A stretch of DNA of 64,000 bases from Phycisphaerae bacterium (GTDB lineage Bacteria; Planctomycetota; Phycisphaerae; UBA1845). The translations under genes and the position numbers were made by a program. The stretch's first letter is position 1. Each line of letters starts with the position of its first letter. Positions 2,560 through 17,684 of this stretch are shown one piece after another. Under the pieces are notes generated by a model. It had not been told where the DNA came from. It was given only the letters and a program-made list of their open reading frames with translations, and did no database searches. The stretch covers positions 62,001-126,000 of the forward strand of contig JAGFJJ010000014.1 of NCBI GenBank assembly GCA_024102815.1. The letters are read 5' to 3'.

Positions 2560-3825
2560 TCACTGCGGTCGTGCTTGAACCTTGCGGAGTGCGATAACGG
2601 ATTCTCGTGGGGCCAGCAGACCGAGATCGCCGAACCGGTGGCGCGTGGGAACCAGATCCCGCGCGACGAAAATCCCGTCCACGTCCAAACCGCGAACCTC
2701 CGCCAGTTCGGCGACGTGAAGGTCGGCCGGAAAGTAGGCGTCCGAAATCCGGGCGCCACCGACAACGATCCAGCAAGGTGCTCCCACCCGAAGGACACGC
2801 AACAGCTCATCGAACACACGGGCAAGGTCGTTCAAATATTTCCCAACCAGCCGCGCCTCGCGCCTCTTTCCCTGTCCAAGAAGTTCCTCGCAAACTTCCT
2901 CCGCGGCGGCCGCCCCTGGCTCGCCCCATCCCTCGCACCGGGAAGCCTGATTGTTATCATTAGAATCCGCTCCCGACGGGCCGGCGTAATCCGACCGCGA
3001 TACCGCAAACGGCGACGGACGGACTGCCTCGATCTGGGAATCCGATCCATTGGACTCGTCCGGCCCGTACCAGAACGAATACACTTGCTCGTAAGGGCCG
3101 GTCAGACCCACATAATCGTAACGCGAAACATACGGCGGCGACGTCAGGACGCCGGCCATCGACTCCTCTTCGAACATGTCCAGCCGACGCGCATCGCCGC
3201 GATGAACCGCAAACGCCCGCCGTAGCGGCATGGTCAGGTCCTCGCGCATCATCTCCGCAACAGAGTGGAGTAGTTTGCCGATGGGTTCCGCGCCGCGATT
3301 CAGCTTGCCCTTTCCGGTGTACTGCCGGGCAACGGCCAACATCAACGCGGCGTGATGCAGGGGTTCCCGCAACTGGATGGCGTAATCGCGCCAATCCGGC
3401 GAATCCGGCAAGGCTGGAAGCGGCGGAAACGGACCTTGAGACATGACTTCGTTCAGAAACACCAGCGTACGCAGCGGCTCGACGCCGGTTGCGACGATTC
3501 CCCTTCGGGCACACTCCACGACGAAGGTCCCTGACCCGCTGAAAGGGTCGAGCAAGGGTGAGAATTCGCTCGTTCCGCCTCCGCCCGCCCTGGTGCCGTC
3601 CCCCTCCTCCCGAATGAAGGTCCGCACCAGCTCAGGGGAAAACCCTTGGCGATAGGGAATCCATCGGTGGTAAGGCTCGACCACCGCACTGCGCGCCGTA
3701 ACCAGGGTCGCCAGGCGCGGTTCACGCGACATGCGCCGGAACCATTTTCGCTCCAATTGACACCGGCTGCGCGTTGCTCGATCCGGGGGACTTTGGGGGC
3801 GCACGACACGACGTTTGCGGGGCAT
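2560..3825 (-). CDS. Solitary DNA methyltransferase, SPPY type
   Basis: A 421-residue protein with both hallmarks of an amino-methylating DNA methyltransferase. The SAM-binding motif I is DPFSGSGT (residues 93-100) and the catalytic motif IV is TSPPYVSRYDY (228-238). SPPY is most often seen in N4-cytosine enzymes, although some N6-adenine and tRNA-modifying relatives share it. Between motif IV and the C-terminal region there is a low-complexity Ser/Asp/Asn/Ala-rich stretch (about 255-310) that looks like an inserted linker. No restriction endonuclease or specificity subunit lies beside it, so it appears to be an orphan methylase or an RNA guanine-type methylase relative. An internal ATG at 3732 is an alternative start; the upstream Shine-Dalgarno match is weak for both. 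Confidence 0.8.
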   Translation of the reverse strand: MPRKRRVVRPQSPPDRATRSRCQLERKWFRRMSREPRLATLVTARSAVVEPYHRWIPYRQGFSPELVRTFIREEGDGTRAGGGGTSEFSPLLDPFSGSGTFVVECARRGIVATGVEPLRTLVFLNEVMSQGPFPPLPALPDSPDWRDYAIQLREPLHHAALMLAVARQYTGKGKLNRGAEPIGKLLHSVAEMMREDLTMPLRRAFAVHRGDARRLDMFEEESMAGVLTSPPYVSRYDYVGLTGPYEQVYSFWYGPDESNGSDSQIEAVRPSPFAVSRSDYAGPSGADSNDNNQASRCEGWGEPGAAAAEEVCEELLGQGKRREARLVGKYLNDLARVFDELLRVLRVGAPCWIVVGGARISDAYFPADLHVAELAEVRGLDVDGIFVARDLVPTRHRFGDLGLLAPRESVIALRKVQARPQ

Positions 3826-4017
3826 GGCCGTCAGCCTATGTCGAAGGAGGTTGAAAGGGAACCCGGGGGCGCCCGTCGCGTGCCGAAGCAGGAAAATTCA
3901 GTCCGGACAGAGATTCGGGGAAACGACCTATGAACCGCTCTTCCGGAAGTACCGATGACCTGATCGGGTGAGTCACCGGGCACCGCAGCCCGGTTTCACT
4001 TCGCTGACCCGACCGTC

Positions 4018-4081
4018 TGCCAGGCGTTCCAAGTCCGCAGCTCCGGGGTACGTGCTCCGGAGCGCGCCTGGCAGTTTTCCC
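4018..4081. other. Nested inverted repeat downstream of gatD
   Basis: Outer arms TGCCAGGCG (4018-4026) and CGCCTGGCA (4065-4073) enclose inner arms GCTCCGG (4040-4046) and CCGGAGC (4057-4063), followed on the plus strand by GTTTTCCC. This gives a two-tier hairpin in the 292-base gap between gatD and the DNA methyltransferase gene. The short T run lies on the plus-strand side, whereas gatED is read on the minus strand, so it is a poor textbook terminator for that operon. It could still stop or stabilise the gatED transcript, or end a plus-strand transcript. Confidence 0.45.
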
Positions 4082-4117
4082 TCCCGGAACGCCTTTTCGA
4101 CGCTTCTCGATAGAACA

Positions 4118-5503
4118 CTAACGGCGGATCGAGCGAATGAACCGCTCCACTTCCGGGATTGCTCCCTGGTAGATCAGGTAGCCGTTGTACGGCTCGCGGA
4201 GGGTCGTCTCGTGGTTAATGGGCGTGAGCATGATCCGACGGATCTTTTCGCGATCGTCGCTCTGACCCAGCGCCCAGCATAGCTTCATATAGGCGACCTC
4301 GGGCAGCATGTTCGCGGCCGGCACGACGCCCAGTTCCATGATCTCGCGCCCCGTCTCATAGACGTACATCTGCACGTAGCCCCAGAGCGTCTGCACGGTC
4401 ATGTAAATGTGCACGCCTGCATCAACAGCGCGCTTGAGCGCCGGGTACAACGGCCGGTTAACATGCCCGAGCCCGGTTCCGGCAATGACAATCCCCCGAT
4501 AACCCTTCTCGACGATCGCGTCGACGATGTCGGGTCTCATGTTGGGATAGTAGTAGAGGATCGTCACGCGCTCTTCGAACGCGGTGTTGATCGTCACCTC
4601 CCGATCCTTGCGCCGGCGCTTATAGTCCTTCTTGAAGGTGACGATCTCCCTGGCGTCGATTTTCGCCAGCGGAATATCGCCGATCGTGCGGAACGTCGAT
4701 CGATAGCTGGAATGCATCTTGCGCACCCGCGTCCCGCGATGGAGCAGGCAATACTCGTCCGAAGTCGGGCCGAACATGCACACCATCACTTCGGCGATGT
4801 CGCTCTCCGCCGCCGCCTTCACCGCATTCATCAGGTTCAGCGCCGCATCCGAAGACGGTCGATCCGAACTCCGCTGCGAACCCACCATGACGATGGGTAC
4901 GGGTGAATTCTGCACCATGAAGCTCAGCACCGCCGCGGTGTGATGCATGGTGTCCGTACCGTGACCGATGACAACGCCGTCCACCCCGTCGCGAATGGCT
5001 TCACCGATACGCTCCGCAAGGCGGATGTACTGCTCCGGCCCCATGTTCTCGCTGAACACCCCGAAGAGCTTCTCGGTGGTAAGGTTGCAGAAGTCGGCCA
5101 ATTCCGGAACGGAGCCGTAGAGTTCGCCGGGAGAAAACGCCGGAATGACCGCACCGGTACGATAGTCCAGTCGGCTGGCAATCGTCCCACCGGTCCCGAA
5201 CAGCGTGACATTCGGCTTGGAAGGGTGAAACGGAAACTGCTTCTCGGGAATCTTGTAGTGCGCTTCCCGCCGGCCGTGCTCGATCATGCTCGACACGGAG
5301 TCGGCCGCAATGCCCACGTTGTACCCGCTGTCCAGCTTCAGCACGATGTGCCGTTCGTCGGAGGTTTCCGATCGCGGCAGGATCAGCCCACGAAACCGCC
5401 CCCGCGCCGTCTCGACCTCCACGTCGCTCCACACGCCGACGCGGAAGCGCTCGAGCACCGCCTGCCCCACGCCGCGATAGCCGTTGTTGCTGCTCTTGCT
5501 CAT
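4118..5503 (-). CDS. gatD: Archaeal-type Glu-tRNA(Gln) amidotransferase subunit D
   Basis: GatD is the asparaginase-like subunit that frees ammonia from glutamine or asparagine for GatE, which amidates Glu-tRNA(Gln). The 461-residue protein has the GatD layout: an N-terminal small beta domain (about 15-80, GVWSDVEVETARGRFRGLIL) that ordinary L-asparaginases lack, then an AnsA-type domain. The catalytic elements are all present: TGGTIAS with Thr107, GHGTDTM with Thr183-Asp184, and TRVRKMHSS with Lys262. The VGSQRSSDRPSSDAALNL segment matches archaeal GatD closely. The ATG start overlaps the gatE stop (ATGA), so the two subunits are probably made in equal amounts. A plain type I asparaginase is unlikely given the N-terminal domain and the partner gene. 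Confidence 0.93.
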   Translation of the reverse strand: MSKSSNNGYRGVGQAVLERFRVGVWSDVEVETARGRFRGLILPRSETSDERHIVLKLDSGYNVGIAADSVSSMIEHGRREAHYKIPEKQFPFHPSKPNVTLFGTGGTIASRLDYRTGAVIPAFSPGELYGSVPELADFCNLTTEKLFGVFSENMGPEQYIRLAERIGEAIRDGVDGVVIGHGTDTMHHTAAVLSFMVQNSPVPIVMVGSQRSSDRPSSDAALNLMNAVKAAAESDIAEVMVCMFGPTSDEYCLLHRGTRVRKMHSSYRSTFRTIGDIPLAKIDAREIVTFKKDYKRRRKDREVTINTAFEERVTILYYYPNMRPDIVDAIVEKGYRGIVIAGTGLGHVNRPLYPALKRAVDAGVHIYMTVQTLWGYVQMYVYETGREIMELGVVPAANMLPEVAYMKLCWALGQSDDREKIRRIMLTPINHETTLREPYNGYLIYQGAIPEVERFIRSIRR

Positions 5504-7482
5504 GCCTTGGTCTTTGTCGCGGCCGCCCGCGATCCACCCGCCGCGGCAATACGGACACCCGTCTCCATCAAAACAGGTTGCACTTTCCGAGATAACTCCC
5601 GCCCGCCGACGAGCCCTCGCCACGAACGCATGAGCTGCCCCATGACGAACCGCCGCCGGTGCTCCTCGCTTGGGAACGATCGGCCGACGCTCTGGGCGAT
5701 CGCATCCCGAACGCCGGACGCCACCTCCGCTTCGGACGGCGCCGAACCAAGGTTCGCCACGATGTCGTTGACAGCGGCACCATTCTCGTACGCGCCCTTC
5801 TCGCCGGAACGCGCTTCGACTACCTGCCGCAGAACGGAGAAAACACCTTCCGGGGCAAGTCGTGCCTGGGCCACCATCGCCAGCACGTCGAGCAAATCCT
5901 TTTCAGACAGCAAGCGCACATCGAGACCCGATCGGCGTAGCGCTTTGAGCCGCTGCGTAAGAACAACCGCCGCGAACACCGGCGGAACATGATGCTCGCC
6001 CACGGCCCGATCAAACACCTCCGCGTAGTCCGACATGATCAGCGCGTCGATCAACGCGTCCGTCAGCCCCAGCTGGCGATACCTTGCCTCACGATCCCAG
6101 ACGAATTCGGGCATGTGGCCGCGAATGCTCTCGAGCTGCTTTTCATCAACCTTCAACGGCGGCAAGTCCGTATCCGGATACATCCGCTCTGCGCCGGGCA
6201 GCACACGCTCGAAGCCGTTGGTGCCGTCCTTGAGCGCCTGGCGCGTGTCCGGCGGAATGCCCTGCGTCGCTTCGCGGGCACGGATCATGATCTCCTCGCA
6301 GGCGGTGATCGTGTCCCGCTCCGGGCCCCACACGAGCATCAGGGCATCGCCGGGGTCCGCATCCAGCGCCTTGAACAGACGCTGCCAATCCCGCACCAGC
6401 AACGTTTCCGATGCCGTGTCGGAGTGGGCGATGTTGGGCAGCCGCGTCAGGCAGGCAATAACGCGGACACGGTCCGAAAACTCCTTGGCAAACGTCGTGT
6501 GTTCCTGCGTCGGTTCGTTGAGCAATCCGGCAAACCGCCGCAGCGCGACGCAACGGACTCGCTCTCCCGCGGAAACAGCCGACTGAATCGGAACGTAACT
6601 TGTCTTGGCCACGATGCGCGTCACGTCGGCATGGTCGGTAGACAGGTTTTCCGGCGTGACGCCTCGCTGTGCCAACTGGTCCCGAATATGCAAAAGCGAA
6701 CACTGCCGCCGGGCCTCGTTGTAGACCAGCCGGGGAATCCGCCACAGTTGCGGCACGCCTTTGATTTCGATCCGCGTGCCGCCGGTCACGCTGACGTTGA
6801 CGTCCTGTCGCACGGCACCGTACCCCGTGCGAACCTTGCCAGTGCTCCGGCAGAGGCGACGGATGATCTGGCCGACCTCGTACACCTCCTGCGGGTTGAC
6901 CATGTCCGGCTCGGTGACCACCTCGATCAGCGGCATCCCCAGGCGGTCCGTCAGGTATACGCGATCGTGTCCGACATCGGACACCTCCCGGCAGGAGTCT
7001 TCCTCCAGTCCCAATTGCCGGATCCGGACGCGGCGATCCTTGTAGGGCATCCAGCCGTCCACGCCCACGATGGTGGTCCGCTGGAATCCGGTGGGAATCG
7101 ACCCGTCCAGATACTGCTTCCGGGCAATGTGCAATTCGTCCACCATGTTCAGCCGTAACAGCAACGCGATTTCCAGGGCGATGCTCAACGCCTCATCGTT
7201 CAGGAAGAATGGGGGCGTGTCGTCGAATTCGTAGGTGCAGACGGTATCGCGGTGCAGGCGATAGTAGATGTTCTTGCGCGTCTTCTTCTCCATCAGGGCG
7301 GTGCCGTCGTACTCGCCAAGTTCGGAGAGCGTCGGCCGCATGTGCCGCAGAACTTCCGCGTCATACTCGCTGCTGTAGCGGCCGGCCGGGCAGCGGCAGA
7401 AGAGCTTGGTCTGCGTGAGGATCTGCCGATGCACCTCCAGACCGCAACGGAAGCCGATCGCGGCGTAGTCCTGCTCGGTCAT
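5500..7482 (-). CDS. gatE: Archaeal-type Glu-tRNA(Gln) amidotransferase subunit E
   Basis: GatE is the kinase/amidase subunit that binds and activates Glu-tRNA(Gln), the archaeal counterpart of GatB. The 660-residue protein starts with the family opening GFRCGLEVHRQILTQTKLFC and the CRCP segment. It continues through the cradle-domain motifs YYRLHRDTVCTYEFDD, SIPTGFQRT and GLEEDSCRE. VRTGYGAVRQDVNVSV and IEIKGVPQL match GatE and differ from GatB. The central part (roughly 320-470) is the size and position of the AspRS-like insertion found in GatE and absent from GatB, followed by a helical YqeY-like tail. The ATG at 7482 fits homologue starts; 25 more in-frame residues upstream look non-coding. 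It precedes and overlaps gatD. Confidence 0.93.
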   Translation of the reverse strand: MTEQDYAAIGFRCGLEVHRQILTQTKLFCRCPAGRYSSEYDAEVLRHMRPTLSELGEYDGTALMEKKTRKNIYYRLHRDTVCTYEFDDTPPFFLNDEALSIALEIALLLRLNMVDELHIARKQYLDGSIPTGFQRTTIVGVDGWMPYKDRRVRIRQLGLEEDSCREVSDVGHDRVYLTDRLGMPLIEVVTEPDMVNPQEVYEVGQIIRRLCRSTGKVRTGYGAVRQDVNVSVTGGTRIEIKGVPQLWRIPRLVYNEARRQCSLLHIRDQLAQRGVTPENLSTDHADVTRIVAKTSYVPIQSAVSAGERVRCVALRRFAGLLNEPTQEHTTFAKEFSDRVRVIACLTRLPNIAHSDTASETLLVRDWQRLFKALDADPGDALMLVWGPERDTITACEEIMIRAREATQGIPPDTRQALKDGTNGFERVLPGAERMYPDTDLPPLKVDEKQLESIRGHMPEFVWDREARYRQLGLTDALIDALIMSDYAEVFDRAVGEHHVPPVFAAVVLTQRLKALRRSGLDVRLLSEKDLLDVLAMVAQARLAPEGVFSVLRQVVEARSGEKGAYENGAAVNDIVANLGSAPSEAEVASGVRDAIAQSVGRSFPSEEHRRRFVMGQLMRSWRGLVGGRELSRKVQPVLMETGVRIAAAGGSRAAATKTKA

Positions 7483-7727
7483 GTGCTCAAAGGGCTTGAA
7501 CGGAAGAGGCAACAGGCGGCTCCTGAGGCCGTAGCGCGGGTCGGAGCACGTCCGCACCGGCCTGACGCGGGTCGGGAATCACTCGAGGCGGATTCTAAAT
7601 CGCCTGATAGGTGCGGGCAAACGGCGTGCCCGCCGGTGACGGATTGAAGATATTCACCGGGCAGCCAATCCTCGGCAGCCGCAGACAATGCGGGGCAGTC
7701 CCCATTCCTGTTGCCCGTTGCCGCTTC

Positions 7728-8240
7728 CTACACCTCCACGGCCACGGCCCGGCGGATCGTCGCCCGCCGCTCCGACTCCCCCTGACCGATGCCCAGTTGC
7801 AGGACACGACCGGCGCTGTCGGAAATGTTGCCGAGGTGGCGCTGGATGGCAAGGGCATCGATTTCCTCACTCTCTTCGGGAAGCGCGTGGTCCTCGAAAC
7901 CGCCCATCAGCGTGAACGACGCGATGTTGGACTGGGTCTGGGCGATGCCCGACATGGCCCGGTCCCATTCGGCCAGGCTGAGGTCACCGCTGCGGACGAG
8001 TTCGCGGAGGTCCAGAAATTCAGCCGCGAGAGTAGGGAGCTTGATCTCCGTCCCTCCCATAATGGTCAGGAAGAACTGGGTAACGGGTTTGGCGTCCTCA
8101 CGGTTTCGCGATCTTGCCGCCAGAATCTGCCGGGCCACCGTGGGCATGACCAGCTCCGCGCCACCCATGAACGTGATGAAAATCCGTTTATCCGGCCGGA
8201 GCACGCCCCCGTGCCCGCCCATGATGGCAACCTGGATCAT
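7728..8240 (-). CDS. MGG-repeat protein, LiaF C-terminal-like
   Basis: A 170-residue soluble protein preceded by a very good ribosome binding site (AAGGAG, seven bases from ATG). It contains four xMGG turns spaced through the chain: IMGGHGG (6-12), FMGGAELVMPTVA (24-36), IMGGTEIKLPTLA (60-72) and LMGGFEDHALP (111-121). The pattern of a hydrophobic strand, FGG/MGG turn, glutamate and then a hydrophobic-Pro strand resembles the beta-solenoid-like cell-wall-active antibiotic response domain at the C terminus of LiaF and related DUF1707/DUF2154 proteins. There is no signal peptide or membrane segment. It lies about 245 bases before gatE on the same strand, but I see no functional link. The function is unknown. 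Confidence 0.75.
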   Translation of the reverse strand: MIQVAIMGGHGGVLRPDKRIFITFMGGAELVMPTVARQILAARSRNREDAKPVTQFFLTIMGGTEIKLPTLAAEFLDLRELVRSGDLSLAEWDRAMSGIAQTQSNIASFTLMGGFEDHALPEESEEIDALAIQRHLGNISDSAGRVLQLGIGQGESERRATIRRAVAVEV

Positions 8241-8524
8241 CTCGAAACTCCTTCCCGCGACTCGCGGAACGCATCCTGGAACAGTTTGTCATTCGGTGCC
8301 GGGTGGGACAATATTTCGTCATCCTGTCCCTCCGGGGATCGACAGGCGTCCTCCGAGCCCGTTTGAAGCACCCCTGATCCCCTTGGCTCGTCTGGTCCGT
8401 ATTTTGCCTGTAATCTATCCGTTGCACGGATTCGCCGCACGGGTACGTGCGACCTCGGCGCGGCCGGCGGCAGCGGACTTGCCGCCCTCGACTTCGATCC
8501 CGTTCCCCTTTCGAGAGGACTCCC

Positions 8525-9676
8525 ATGAAGAAGATTCGCCTGTTCACGCCCGGTCCCACGATGGTTCCCGAAGATGTCATGCTGGAGATGGCCCGCCCGA
8601 TGGAGCACCATCGCACGGCCTACTACCGCGACCTGCACAAGGAGCTGCACGGCTACATGCAGTACCTGTTCCAGACCAAGGCGACCTGCCTGACCTTTAC
8701 GGGCAGTGGGACCTCGGCGGCCGAGGCGGCGATCGTGGGTTGCTGCCCGCCGGGTCACAAGGCGCTGGTCATCCGCAACGGCAAGTTCGCGGAGCGCTGG
8801 GCCAAGGTGTGCGCGACCTTCGGCATCGAGCACACGACCGTCGACCTCGAGTACGGCCACGGCGGCAAGCCCGAACATGTCAAGAAGGCAATGGACGCCG
8901 ACCCCAAGATCGACACGGTCATCGTGGTTCACAGCGAGACCTCGGCCACGGCGCTGACCGACGTCGAAGGCATTGCCAAGATCACCCGCGATCGCGGAGC
9001 GCTACTCATTGTCGATGGCATTACCGCAGTCGGCACGATCCCCGTGAAAATGGACGAATGGGGCGTAGACGTGTACGTAACCGGTTCACAGAAGGCACTG
9101 ATGCTCCCGCCGGGACTGGCTCTGGCAGCCGTCAACGACAAGGCCTGGAAACGGATCGACTCCGGCAAGATGCCCACGCTTTACAATGACCTCAAGGCCT
9201 ACCGGAAATCCCTGGAAACCTGGGATGCTCCCTTTACGCCGAACGTCGCCCTTGTTCGTGGGCTCATGTTCATTCTCAAAAAGGTCAAGGAAGTCGGACT
9301 CGAGCATATCTGGGCGGAGACGGCCATGCTCGCCAAGGGCATGCGCGCCGCGACGGAGGCGCTGGGCCTGAAGCTCTTTGCCGCCGACCCGGTGGATTCG
9401 GTCACAGCCATCGCCGTCCCCGCAGGACTCGACGAGGCCAAGCTCCGCAAGACCATCCGTGCCAAGTACGGATTCCAGATCGCGGGCGGTCAGGGCGATA
9501 TGCAGGGCAAGATCTTCCGCTTCTCCCACATGGGCTGGGTGGACGCGTTCGACACGCTCGGCGCCATCTCCGCATTCGAAATGTGCCTCGCGGAGCAGAA
9601 TTTCTCCTTCAAGCAAGGCGCGGGTGTCGCCGCGGCCCAGGCCGTGTTTGCAGAGGGATACAAGAAGCTGGCGTAA
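8525..9676 (+). CDS. Class V aminotransferase (alanine/serine-glyoxylate type)
   Basis: A 383-residue PLP-dependent fold type I enzyme. LFTPGPTMVPEDVM at the start and HHRTAYYRDLHKEL match alanine-glyoxylate, serine-glyoxylate and serine-pyruvate aminotransferases, including PucG and the old 'soluble hydrogenase 42 kDa subunit'. Other family motifs are GSGTSAAEAAI, the HSETSATAL active-site strand, the LIVDGITAVG strand with the PLP-ring aspartate, and GSQKALMLPPGLA with the Schiff-base lysine at residue 190. It likely moves an amino group between alanine, serine and glyoxylate in central or photorespiration-like metabolism. The ATG at 8525 follows TTTCGAGAGGACTCCC, a good ribosome binding site. 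It appears to be a single-gene unit. Confidence 0.9.
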   Translation: MKKIRLFTPGPTMVPEDVMLEMARPMEHHRTAYYRDLHKELHGYMQYLFQTKATCLTFTGSGTSAAEAAIVGCCPPGHKALVIRNGKFAERWAKVCATFGIEHTTVDLEYGHGGKPEHVKKAMDADPKIDTVIVVHSETSATALTDVEGIAKITRDRGALLIVDGITAVGTIPVKMDEWGVDVYVTGSQKALMLPPGLALAAVNDKAWKRIDSGKMPTLYNDLKAYRKSLETWDAPFTPNVALVRGLMFILKKVKEVGLEHIWAETAMLAKGMRAATEALGLKLFAADPVDSVTAIAVPAGLDEAKLRKTIRAKYGFQIAGGQGDMQGKIFRFSHMGWVDAFDTLGAISAFEMCLAEQNFSFKQGAGVAAAQAVFAEGYKKLA

Positions 9677-9864
9677 CACCGTCGCAATCTGACTCGCGGC
9701 CTCGGACTCGAAAGGGTCTTGGTTCAGGACTTGGCCATTTGCGCGCCGGCCACCGTGCGGCACGGATGAAACTCATGCGCGGCAGCCCCCGGAGGATCGG
9801 GCCGATGGGGCGCACAAGTGCGTCCCCATTGCCTGCCGCGGTCGTCTGCGGTATACGCACGCGC

Positions 9865-10503: not shown

Positions 10504-10659
10504 GTTCATCCGATCGCTTAAGCGTCTTTGCCGCTGACCCGCGGCGCCCCGCACCGAGTCACCGAAAGGCTGCGAGATGACGTTGGAATCGCCGGTTCAT
10601 GCTTGGCGCGAACTGAACCGATGTCTAAAATAGTCTCAGCGGAAACCCGGTGCAGGACC

Positions 10660-11001
10660 ATGAGCGACAAGCCTGAACAGCAGCCAATCGACCCCAATGC
10701 GGTGAGTGAATCCGGTACGGCGCTGGCCCCGGCCAAGCGTGCGGCACCGCCCGAGCGCAAGCCCAAGAAGCTTCCGCCCTACAAAGTGCTCCTGCACAAC
10801 GACGAAGTGAACTCGTTCGATCACGTAATCAGCGCGATCATGCGACTTGTTGGTTCGACTTTTGAAGACGCCACGGTCAAGGCACTAGAGGCTCACGAAA
10901 AAGGTGTAGCCCTGATCACGGTCACCCACCAGGAGCGGGCCGAGCTCTTTGCAGAGCAATTCGCTTCCCTCAGCCTTACCGTCACCATCGAACCCGCCTA
11001 G
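10660..11001 (+). CDS. clpS: ClpS adaptor of the ClpAP/ClpCP protease
   Basis: ClpS delivers N-degron substrates, those with Leu, Phe, Tyr or Trp at the N terminus, to the Clp protease and blocks other substrates. The 113-residue protein has a disordered, proline/alanine-rich N-terminal tail (1-35), then the conserved YKVLLHNDEVNSFDHVISAI segment containing the HND element of the substrate pocket. AHEKGVALITVTHQERAEL follows, and the last strand (LTVTIEP) is typical. The tail is longer than in Escherichia coli ClpS. GCAGGA lies just before the ATG at 10660; a longer in-frame reading to 10528 has no domain support. No clpA or clpC is adjacent. Confidence 0.9.
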   Translation: MSDKPEQQPIDPNAVSESGTALAPAKRAAPPERKPKKLPPYKVLLHNDEVNSFDHVISAIMRLVGSTFEDATVKALEAHEKGVALITVTHQERAELFAEQFASLSLTVTIEPA

Positions 11002-13703: not shown

Positions 13704-16700
13704 ATGCCCAACTCTTTGTCGACCCCCAAGTTCCGGGCGGAAACGCTGGTGCTTGTAAGCGCGTTGTGCCTTGCGTTCGTGTTGCCTGATCCGGCCCGAG
13801 CGGGCCAACCGGGCGAGGCGGAGTCCCGAGAAGAAGCCGCCACGCCCGTTACGCAGTCCCTCAGCGGAACAGTGCGCATCGAACTCTCGCCCGATGCGTT
13901 GAGACAGATCGGCTGGGAGGTGATGTCTTCGGCAGGAACGGTCGAGGACCCGGACGCAACGCCGACGAGCTACACGTTCGGTCTGGCCATCGGCGAGGCA
14001 CACTTCGAGATGGAAAATGCGAGGCCCGTCACGTTCCTGGACGCCTCGGTCCGCAGCAAGGGAGCACTGCTGATCAGCGACGGCAGTGAGCGGCGGACGC
14101 TGGGCAATTTTCTGCTCCGATATGAAACCGACAAGGGCTGGAGCCTCGCCAGCACTATTGCGGGTGATGACGACGTACGCTTCGAGCTCCTGCCCGTTCT
14201 CCACGATTTCGCCCATTGGCCGGATGCGGTCACCATCCAGGCCGGCCTGCGTCTTTGCGAGAACGGTGTCTGCGGACGCGAAATCGGAAGAGTAAAGATC
14301 GACTTCGAGCTTAATGGAGAGGCGAGAGCCACGTGCGATGTTTCCGGCGAGAATGCCCCTCGTTCCCCCCTGGCCGGTTCCGGCCCGGACGTCATCGTGG
14401 GTGATCTTTACCAGACGATGAGCTACGGAACCTCCGGAGGGATTTCCGCGTTCTCCGTTGGAACCGTTTCATGCAATCTGGGGAGCGAGCCGCTCAACTG
14501 GTTCTCCAACACGAATCAACATCCCGTCATCGCACAAAACATGTACCGCTTCAAGGACGGCCGGTTTGAGCAGATCGGACAGAGCTGGCTCAAGCACGGA
14601 TTCTTCGCACTCTCCGACAATCTCTGCACGGGCCCGGGCGGATGCGCAGGCGATCCTTCAGGACAACACCTCGGAGTGGGTTGCTCCGATCCTTACTCGG
14701 CGAGTCTGAACGGAACGCAGAACAACCTGGGACCGCGATCCGAGGTGAACCCATCCACCGGGTTCTACCCCTACCCGTTTTCCGCACCGGCCGCCCCGCC
14801 GGTCATTGGTCGGCGCCTTCAGGTCCATAACGACGACATCGACCCCACGCTCAATGCCGGGGCGATGTACTTCGTCGAGGGTCAGTATGTGACCCCGGAC
14901 GACGCGACGGCAGGCAACGGCGACAACAACGCCTCACACCGCCGCGTGACCATCTCCGGAGGCGGAGGCTCGTACAGCCTGAATTTGGCGGACAGCACGG
15001 TACGGGAACGACCGGCTATCCTGGCCTGGCCGGCCCTGGATCACTCGGTGGCCGCGCAGGACGTTCTCATCGCGGGCGACGGTTTGCTGAAGATCGCGGC
15101 ACGGGCCAGCAGCGTCGGGGACGGCTACTGGTCCTATGAATACGCCCTGTTCAATCTCAATTCCGACCGGGCGGTCGGCGGCTTTTCGATCCCGCTCGGA
15201 GGAGGGGGTCTGGTTCGCAACGCCGGATTCCACGATGTGGAATCGCACAGCGGTGAACCCTACTCGAACGCCGATTGGACGATTACGGTCGACCCGGCGT
15301 TTATCGCCTGGGAAACGGAAGCCTACGCTTCGAATCCCAACGCCAACGCGCTTCGCTGGGGAACGATGTACAATTTCCGATTTGAGTCCAATCTCCCGCC
15401 GACCACGACGACAGCAATCATCACGCCCTTCAAACCGGGCACGCCGACCTCCGTCGTCATCAACATCGTCGGCCCGGACGTCGGCCCTCTCGATTGCAAC
15501 AGCAACAGCATCGAAGACATCTGCGACGTGGATTGCACCGCCCAGAGCGGCGCCTGTCAGGTTACCGGCTGCGGGCAGAGCTCCGATTGCAACGCCAACT
15601 TCATCCCCGACGAATGTGAATCGGATAGCGACGGCGACGGCGTGCCGGATTCATGTGATCAATGTCCGGGTTTTGATGACGCGGTGGACAGCGACGGCGA
15701 CGGCGTTCCCGACGGCTGCGATCTGTGCCCGGGTTTCGATGACAGCGTCGATCCGGACGGGGACGGTGTCCCATCCCCATGCGACAACTGCCCAACGACG
15801 CCCAACGCCTCACAGGCCGACGACGACATGGACGGCGTCGGAAACGCCTGCGACCCGGACTATTGTGACCCGATGCCGGCCAACGACCACTTCGACACCG
15901 ACCCAGGCTGGACCGTCGTGAACGAAGGCGCAACCACAGGATTCTGGGATTGGGGCATCCCGGTCGGCGGCGGCGATCGCGAGGACCCGCCGACGGATTA
16001 CGACGGCAACGGTGCTTGCTACCTGACCGGAAACACCGACGGCGATTCCGATGTGGACGGCGGCACGACGCGGCTGCTGAGCCCGGAATATCCGCTCGCG
16101 GGCGGAAACGCGACGCTTCGTTACGCGTACTGGATCGGCACGACCGACACCGCCGGCGGAGACAGCCTCATTGTCGAAGTCACCGGTGACGGCGGCGCCA
16201 CCTGGGTACCCGTTGCAACCTATACGGCCGACAGCAACGTCTGGCAGACGGAACTCATTGATCTCACCGCGGCGATTCCGGCCGCCGAGAACGTCCAGGT
16301 TCGCTTCTCGGCGACGGACGGCGGCGCGGCCACGGTACTTGAAGCCGCCATCGACGCCTTCGAGATTGAAGTGGCCTGCGCGATAGACTGCAGCCAGACG
16401 GGCGTCTGCGACGACGGCAATCCCTGCACCGATGATAACTGTGTCGGGGACCTCTGCGAGTTCGTCAACAACACCGCGCCCTGCGATGACGGCGACGCCT
16501 GCACGGTGAGTGACACATGCGGTGGTGGGGTCTGCCTGCCGGGACCGCTGGCACCCTGCACCGATACGTCCTGCACCGACTGTAATAGCAACGGTGCCCG
16601 CGACGACTGCGAGGGACTGCCCGACTGCAACGGCAACAACATTCCCGACGAGTGCGAATTCGCCGATTGCAACAACAACGGCGTCAACGACGTGTGTGAC

Positions 16701-17684
16701 GTCGCCGGAGGACTCAGCACGGACTGTGACGGCGGGCCGATCGGCGACGCCTCGGCCGGGGCTACCCTCTTCGGATCATCTTGCGTCTTCTGCCACGGGC
16801 AGAATGGCACGGGCGGCTTTGGTCCGAACATCCGCGGAAAGAAGCGGAATCAGATCTGGACGAAGCTCACGCCTCCGACAACGCACCCGGGCGGAATCTT
16901 CCCGGAATTCGTCGATCAGGACTTCGCCGACCTTGAGGCCTTCCTGTCCGACACCGGTGCCGGAGCCCGTCCCGATCGAATCCCCGACGATTGCCAGACG
17001 CTCTCCGACTGCGACGGAAACGGTACAACGGACGCCTGCGAGTTGGGTGCGGGAACGCAATCCGACAGCAACGGCGATGCATTCCCCGATGCCTGTCAGC
17101 AACCTCAGCCCGTAGCGCCCGACGCGATTGTAAAGAACCGCTACATCTCCTTCTCCCCCGGCGCGGTTGGAGCCTCCGCCGGAACGATGCAGGCATTCCG
17201 CATGACCAATCCGGCGTTCCCCGGGTGGGAGAAGTGGGTCGACGCGCCCGACGCTTTCGCCGTCTCGCGTCTGACGTGCGCCCCGGTCTATCGAGAATGG
17301 AACGAGCCCATGATCCATGTGGGCGACGCCGACATTCGCGCGAATTCCGCCTACGTCGTCACGCCGCTGGCCGAGACCTTCGACCCAGGTGATCCCAACG
17401 GATACGGGGCCGAATCGACGATCAACACCGCGTTCCGATGGGGCGATGTCGTGGGATCGTACGACGGTTCGGCCTGGACGGGTCCCAACGGAATCGTCAA
17501 TGGAATTGACGTGCTCGCGGCGGTGAATCGCTTCGAGAACCGTCCCACCGCGCCCCCGCTGGTATGGGTGGATATCGACGGCGCCGTCCCCAACGAACTG
17601 GTCAACGGCAACGATATCCTTCGTATCGTCCTCGCCTTTCAGTCCCCGGCGTATCCGTTTGACGACCCGGCGCCCTGCCCTTGA
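13704..17684 (+). CDS. Secreted TSP3-repeat protein with embedded cytochrome c motif
   Basis: A 1326-residue exported protein with a signal peptide at about 1-33 (cleavage near PARAG). Residues 35-590 form a planctomycete-type domain with segments such as MYRFKDGRFEQIGQSWLKHG and LGVGCSDPYSASLNG. Residues about 595-720 are calcium-binding repeats (DSDGDGVPDSCDQCPGFDD and copies). A beta-sandwich-like section with a GDGGATWVPVA strand comes next, then Cys-rich repeats (CDDGNPCTDDNC, CDDGDACTVSDTC) and DCNGNNIPDECEFADCN repeats. A c-type haem motif CVFCH occurs at residues 1027-1031. The last 70 residues contain a duplicated dockerin-like pattern (VNGIDVLAAVNRF and VNGNDILRIVLAF). It probably works outside the cell; its substrate is unknown. 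The 3' end overlaps the convergent DUF418 gene by 46 bases. Confidence 0.88.
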   Translation: MPNSLSTPKFRAETLVLVSALCLAFVLPDPARAGQPGEAESREEAATPVTQSLSGTVRIELSPDALRQIGWEVMSSAGTVEDPDATPTSYTFGLAIGEAHFEMENARPVTFLDASVRSKGALLISDGSERRTLGNFLLRYETDKGWSLASTIAGDDDVRFELLPVLHDFAHWPDAVTIQAGLRLCENGVCGREIGRVKIDFELNGEARATCDVSGENAPRSPLAGSGPDVIVGDLYQTMSYGTSGGISAFSVGTVSCNLGSEPLNWFSNTNQHPVIAQNMYRFKDGRFEQIGQSWLKHGFFALSDNLCTGPGGCAGDPSGQHLGVGCSDPYSASLNGTQNNLGPRSEVNPSTGFYPYPFSAPAAPPVIGRRLQVHNDDIDPTLNAGAMYFVEGQYVTPDDATAGNGDNNASHRRVTISGGGGSYSLNLADSTVRERPAILAWPALDHSVAAQDVLIAGDGLLKIAARASSVGDGYWSYEYALFNLNSDRAVGGFSIPLGGGGLVRNAGFHDVESHSGEPYSNADWTITVDPAFIAWETEAYASNPNANALRWGTMYNFRFESNLPPTTTTAIITPFKPGTPTSVVINIVGPDVGPLDCNSNSIEDICDVDCTAQSGACQVTGCGQSSDCNANFIPDECESDSDGDGVPDSCDQCPGFDDAVDSDGDGVPDGCDLCPGFDDSVDPDGDGVPSPCDNCPTTPNASQADDDMDGVGNACDPDYCDPMPANDHFDTDPGWTVVNEGATTGFWDWGIPVGGGDREDPPTDYDGNGACYLTGNTDGDSDVDGGTTRLLSPEYPLAGGNATLRYAYWIGTTDTAGGDSLIVEVTGDGGATWVPVATYTADSNVWQTELIDLTAAIPAAENVQVRFSATDGGAATVLEAAIDAFEIEVACAIDCSQTGVCDDGNPCTDDNCVGDLCEFVNNTAPCDDGDACTVSDTCGGGVCLPGPLAPCTDTSCTDCNSNGARDDCEGLPDCNGNNIPDECEFADCNNNGVNDVCDVAGGLSTDCDGGPIGDASAGATLFGSSCVFCHGQNGTGGFGPNIRGKKRNQIWTKLTPPTTHPGGIFPEFVDQDFADLEAFLSDTGAGARPDRIPDDCQTLSDCDGNGTTDACELGAGTQSDSNGDAFPDACQQPQPVAPDAIVKNRYISFSPGAVGASAGTMQAFRMTNPAFPGWEKWVDAPDAFAVSRLTCAPVYREWNEPMIHVGDADIRANSAYVVTPLAETFDPGDPNGYGAESTINTAFRWGDVVGSYDGSAWTGPNGIVNGIDVLAAVNRFENRPTAPPLVWVDIDGAVPNELVNGNDILRIVLAFQSPAYPFDDPAPCP

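Follow-up and report, generated by a model that had tools for sequence, protein, structure and literature searches.

A predicted second type of GatDE amidotransferase in a Phycisphaerae bacterium and, patchily, in other bacteria

The amidotransferase GatDE is made up of GatD, an asparaginase-like subunit that produces ammonia, and GatE, which serves as the kinase/transamidase and binds tRNA. Enzymes of this family are expected to recognise the D-loop and the A1:U72 pair of tRNA(Gln) and to amidate Glu-tRNA(Gln). The bacterial enzyme GatCAB likewise carries out tRNA-dependent amidation, and its subunit GatB is homologous to GatE, but its ammonia comes from GatA, a member of the amidase family, rather than from the asparaginase-family GatD, and GatB and GatE form separate clades. 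Two 2022 reviews describe GatDE as confined to archaea, one of them terming it an archaeal signature protein, and hold that archaea lack GlnRS and make Gln-tRNA solely by the indirect route (PMC9499178, PMC8762117). A survey of bacterial routes to Gln-tRNA counted GlnRS, GluRS and GatCAB only (PMC3927822). No report of GatDE in bacteria was found in the literature on Planctomycetes, Ignavibacteria or metagenomes, subscription journals being mostly outside this coverage; database annotation may already name such bacterial proteins. The genomes searched here contradict both the restriction of GatDE to archaea and the absence of GlnRS from archaea.

The window analysed, a stretch of 64,000 nt, is part of a contig in a 5.09-Mb genome of a Phycisphaerae bacterium that is 95% complete. 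On its minus strand gatE (positions 5500 to 7482, 660 aa, with its ATG at 7482) is followed by gatD (4118 to 5503, 461 aa). The gatE stop and the gatD start overlap in the four base pairs ATGA (5500 to 5503, minus strand, read directly from the sequence), through which translation of the two genes is likely coupled, and most loci of relatives have the two genes in this order on one strand. Both full-length products exceed the NCBIfam equivalog cut-offs for their families: GatD scores 515 bits with TIGR02153 (cut-off 324) and 514 with PRK04183 (cut-off 310), and GatE scores 537 bits with PRK04028 (cut-off 456) and 472 with TIGR00134 (cut-off 320). The GatB models gave the pair at most 155 bits, with cut-offs of at least 315; for GatE the GatB equivalog TIGR00133 gave 141.6 bits, below its cut-off of 314.8, so the protein is not assigned to GatCAB.

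The pair resembles the archaeal GatDE of M. thermautotrophicus (2d6f) and P. abyssi (1zq1) in full-length subunits, domains, catalytic residues and fold. GatD has the Pfam domains GatD_N (residues 26-69), Asparaginase (98-291) and Asparaginase_C (312-425), and its T107, T183, D184 and K262 align with T101, T177, D178 and K254 of M. thermautotrophicus GatD, which we take to be the catalytic residues. In GatE, the GatB-like core (GatB_N, residues 13-450) is interrupted by a GAD insert at residues 299-391 (window positions 6310 to 6588, minus strand; PF02938, 30 bits, cut-off 23.4), the large internal insertion typical of the GatE family. Its tail (residues 489-632) matches the Pfam model GatB_Yqey at 21.2 bits, below the cut-off of 27; it is helical in the AlphaFold model and lies inside the full-length alignment to 2d6f. 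The remaining domains of the pair, GatD_N and asparaginase in one subunit and the GatB-like core with GAD insert in the other, are those of archaeal GatDE, and the tail may correspond to the helical YqeY tail of the archaeal enzyme. Sequence searches of the PDB matched GatD to 2d6f and 1zq1 over nearly its whole length and GatE to 2d6f_C and 1zq1_C over its full length (E 1e-98 or better for both subunits). The AlphaFold model of GatE (pLDDT 82) has 1zq1_C and 2d6f as its top Foldseek matches in the PDB, with a TM-score of about 0.8 (target). An initial sequence-only reading of the locus, as a coupled pair in which GatD has the asparaginase catalytic residues and an N-terminal domain and GatE the large internal insertion, is thus borne out. 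The window GatE differs from archaeal GatE in being only about 36% identical, in falling in its own clade and in having RMYPDTD for RMYxETD; its host, moreover, is a bacterium with GlnRS, whereas archaeal hosts are described as lacking that enzyme (PMC9499178).

Trees were used to place the pair among known families; these were quick trees, in which archaea were sampled as Thermoplasmatota plus two further sequences. A branch with SH-aLRT 100 separates GatB from GatE, with the window protein on the GatE side. Among 95 GatEs, 31 formed an archaeal type, and all bacterial sequences together with ten from Thermoplasmatota formed a second, here called type 2; rooting with GatB gave SH-aLRT values of 95 for archaeal GatE and 99 for type 2, and the GatD tree reproduced the split with support of 100 for bacteria plus the Thermoplasmatota type 2. 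The motif RMYPDTD occurs in 130/130 type-2 GatEs and RMYxETD in 42/42 of the archaeal type, while DGSNxxGFQRT occurs in 40 of the 42 archaeal-type proteins and in no type-2 protein, where its counterpart is DGSIPTGFQRT. Judged by these trees and motifs, bacterial GatDE appears as a separate type 2, common to bacteria and some Thermoplasmatota archaea, and in the quick trees the window pair does not fall inside the archaeal GatDE clade. Two Thermoplasmatota groups were basal within type 2 in the quick GatB-rooted tree, yet an AU test did not reject a single Thermoplasmatota type-2 clade (p-AU 0.32); one clade of all archaeal GatEs was not firmly rejected either (p 0.098). The sequence-only reading had proposed trees to establish the standing of the two proteins, and their separation from GatB held, with GatE and GatB on opposite sides of the SH-aLRT 100 branch rather than the pair nested within GatB and AnsA; what did not hold was confinement to this lineage, since the proteins fall in the type-2 clade with many bacteria and some Thermoplasmatota.

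The host is a true bacterium and GatDE is encoded by its own genes. In GC content and codon usage, gatD and gatE are similar to neighbouring genes, and close relatives named Phycisphaerae hold gatE-gatD, some of them on single-contig chromosomes. Of the 114 genomes examined from the order, 40 have a GatE over the cut-off, the single-contig genomes G457, G458 and G414 among them; families f105 and f108 have none. The possibility that the piece might be a contaminating archaeal contig is met by these carriers, by the one-contig relatives and by the native composition, which likewise confirm a genuine bacterial host. Beyond the order, GatDE is spread widely but patchily through bacteria. Of 392 sampled genomes of the phylum, 21 had GatE over the cut-off and two more had it in pieces, and a GatE-profile scan of 84,980 species genomes returned at least 583 relatives. 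Of the best 80 records, one is from a Thermoplasmata archaeon and 79 are bacterial, spread over about twenty names of phylum rank (Calditrichota, Neomarinimicrobiota, Aminicenantes, Ignavibacteria, Bacteroidota, Acidobacteriota, Cloacimonetes, Latescibacterota, Fermentibacteria, Eisenbacteria, Krumholzibacteriota, Elusimicrobia, Riflebacteria, Caldisericia, WOR-3, Myxococcales and others); these records are MAGs by title or apparently so, with CP070707.1, CP070631.1, CP070718.1 and CP054675.1 listed as chromosomes. No plasmid record matched 80% of the protein at a single site; the top match was to a plasmid of the archaeon Natrinema, with 38% identity. The earlier idea that GatDE is peculiar to this lineage therefore falls, given its occurrence in 40/114 genomes of the order, in 21/392 of the phylum sample and under some twenty phylum names.

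This distribution rules out that the lineage alone recently received the genes from an archaeon, and, taken together with a contaminating archaeal contig, that explanation can hardly be entertained: the family was known from archaea only (PMC9499178, PMC8762117), but 40/114 genomes of the order are positive, one-contig ones included, the closest relatives are bacterial and 60-70% identical, whereas the two archaeal sequences from the PDB reach about 34-36%, and GC and codon usage are native. It also seems very unlikely that the genes have survived by chance next to GlnRS and GatCAB, as a relic that is nearly neutral or has no function. Patchiness within the order, with nothing over the cut-off in two of its families, would fit such a relic, but reading frames are intact in nearly all carriers, the catalytic residues and more than 100 columns are invariant across 25 bacterial GatEs, GatD is 63-79% identical to GatD from other phyla, and GatDE persists in genomes without GatA and GatB.

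The other routes to Gln-tRNA and Asn-tRNA were surveyed in 78 genomes, 68 of them GatE carriers. The host itself has, over the cut-offs, GlnRS (725 bits; 572 aa, encoded elsewhere in the genome), AsnRS (463), GatB (484) and GatA (601), and it also has GluRS. GatDE and the GatCAB subunits GatA and GatB thus stand side by side in this genome, and since GlnRS and AsnRS are present too, GatDE is not its sole route to Gln-tRNA. The guess that the host might use GatDE for Gln-tRNA while reserving or lacking GatCAB is not simply borne out; the proposed genome search did turn up glnS, gatA, gatB and the GluRS gene. Among the 68 carriers GlnRS was found in 51 and GatB over the cut-off in 41. GatA exceeded its cut-off in none of the 25 tested among the 26 GatB-less carriers, a number that leaves out one genome with GatB split over two contigs, and GatDE is therefore often the sole tRNA-dependent amidotransferase where Gln and Asn are charged directly. 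Two of these GatB- and GatA-less carriers, CP054675.1 and CP070707.1, are entered as single chromosomes, and each has GlnRS and AsnRS. Four genomes (G249, G124, G463 and G508) have GatDE and AsnRS but neither GlnRS, GatB nor GatA over the cut-off; their completeness, where given, is 88 to 91%, so part of these absences may be gaps. Absences in the single-contig genomes G457/G535 and G458 were left out, as these genomes are of low completeness and have GlnRS or AsnRS in fragments.

In one planctomycete (G072, locus L246) GlnRS-YqeY (3667-6333), gatE (6330-8399) and gatD (8396-9790) form one run with 4-bp overlaps, and GlnRS adjoins gatE in two further genomes, G052 and G027. The Deinococcus-type GlnRS with C-terminal YqeY, here encoded directly before gatE, has the YqeY/GatB tail but, unlike GatDE, ligates Gln directly, with no amidation. 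In the sample of the phylum there was no association of GatE with GlnRS (GlnRS in 11/23 GatE carriers versus 189/369 others). Arg358 of GluRS was considered as a sign of a non-discriminating enzyme and rejected; Arg is absent in all examined GluRSs of the order, with or without GatE, and present in three GlnRS-less carriers, which makes it not diagnostic, and its effect varies between phyla (PMC3927822).

Of 60 Thermoplasmatota genomes, 15 encode a bacterial-type GlnRS that exceeds the cut-off of TIGR00440 (loci L222-L236 in G506, G540, G541, G544, G549, G552, G553, G555, G562, G564, G571, G577, G579, G591 and G594); several of these genomes are without archaeal-type GatE. This GlnRS was present in nine of the ten Thermoplasmatota with type-2 GatE as against six of the 50 others (Fisher p 3e-6, in a test that ignores shared ancestry), and in eight of these ten no archaeal-type GatE was found. 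Both GatE types occur together in two genomes, G555 (L214, L200) and G564 (L209, L208). In G564 a gene for glycerol-1-phosphate dehydrogenase, over the cut-off and typical of archaea, is found close to the type-2 gatE, and in G506 an RNA 3'-phosphate cyclase is encoded on the GlnRS contig and an archaeal-type asparagine synthetase A on the gatE contig. Archaeal genes beside type-2 gatE or GlnRS argue against simple bacterial contamination, although this is possible for some of the MAGs. In G506, a Thermoplasmata MAG, the gene after the type-2 gatE encodes glutamine synthetase (L250, 1737-5210; GlnA, 462 bits).

By analogy with archaeal GatDE, the preferred reading, to which we give a probability of about 0.72, is that gatE-gatD encodes a working type-2 Glu-tRNA(Gln) amidotransferase that would provide a second or repair route beside GlnRS and the main route where GlnRS and GatCAB are lacking. 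Glutamine or asparagine would be the source of the ammonia that GatD frees, and GatE would activate Glu on Glu-tRNA(Gln) and amidate it to Gln-tRNA(Gln). In the host and other cells with GlnRS, the most likely role would be that of a second or repair route in which the Glu-tRNA(Gln) produced by GluRS is converted ahead of its use; in cells without GlnRS and GatCAB, GatDE would be the main route to Gln-tRNA. The gene pair, its family, the catalytic residues, the distribution and the co-occurring genes are direct observations, from which we infer substrate, activity and repair role. Equivalog identity, the kept catalytic residues and the fold favour a working amidotransferase, as does the retention of GatDE in 25 genomes without GatA and GatB and in four that also lack GlnRS, while the glnS-gatE-gatD run and the GlnRS link in Thermoplasmatota favour Gln-tRNA as its business. 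The lack of association between GatE and GlnRS in the phylum sample and the null result for Arg358 count against this reading, and since the host has every other route, the share of GatDE there may be small.

A more specific proposal, that type-2 GatDE is a GlnRS-associated quality control that repairs Glu-tRNA(Gln) and moved with GlnRS between bacteria and Thermoplasmatota, displacing the archaeal GatDE there, is tentative and rather doubtful as a whole. The main rival to a Glu-tRNA(Gln) amidotransferase, in our judgement improbable, is a bacterial GatDE with a changed substrate, either another charged tRNA such as Asp-tRNA(Asn) or a non-tRNA acceptor. Most carriers have GlnRS and so need no GatDE for Gln-tRNA, most also have AsnRS, and the differences fixed in type 2 (RMYPDTD and DGSIPTGFQRT) fall close to conserved motifs. 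All this would suit a changed substrate; the glnS-gatE-gatD run, the GlnRS link in Thermoplasmatota and the four genomes without another visible route to Gln-tRNA point instead to Gln-tRNA. The Calditrichota MAG G505 (locus L094), in which GatDE and GlnRS are present while AsnRS and GatB both fail to reach the cut-off, could be cited for a changed substrate, but may be incomplete; it represents either an incomplete MAG or an unexplained route to Asn-tRNA.

The archaea-only textbook rule for GatDE looks wrong, and finding GatDE and GlnRS in one cell breaks the view of the two as alternatives and raises the question of why cells that charge Gln directly keep an enzyme for converting tRNA-bound Glu to Gln. 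This coexistence also touches the debate over the amidotransferase set of the last common ancestor, and surveys counting only GlnRS, GluRS and GatCAB (e.g. PMC3927822) would misclassify its carriers.

No tRNA genes were found within the window, and of 13 places in the host genome returned by a pattern search for tRNA(Gln), none was a tRNA by ARAGORN. Near gatE, on the opposite strand, an aminotransferase-like reading frame (8480-9676) matched several NCBIfam aminotransferase models below their cut-offs. A ClpS-like frame with an N-terminal extension (10528-11001) was likewise under the NCBIfam cut-offs. Further along, positions 13704-17684 encode a predicted 1326-aa protein that contains numerous repeats rich in Asp, Asn and Cys as well as a CVFCHG motif of the heme type.
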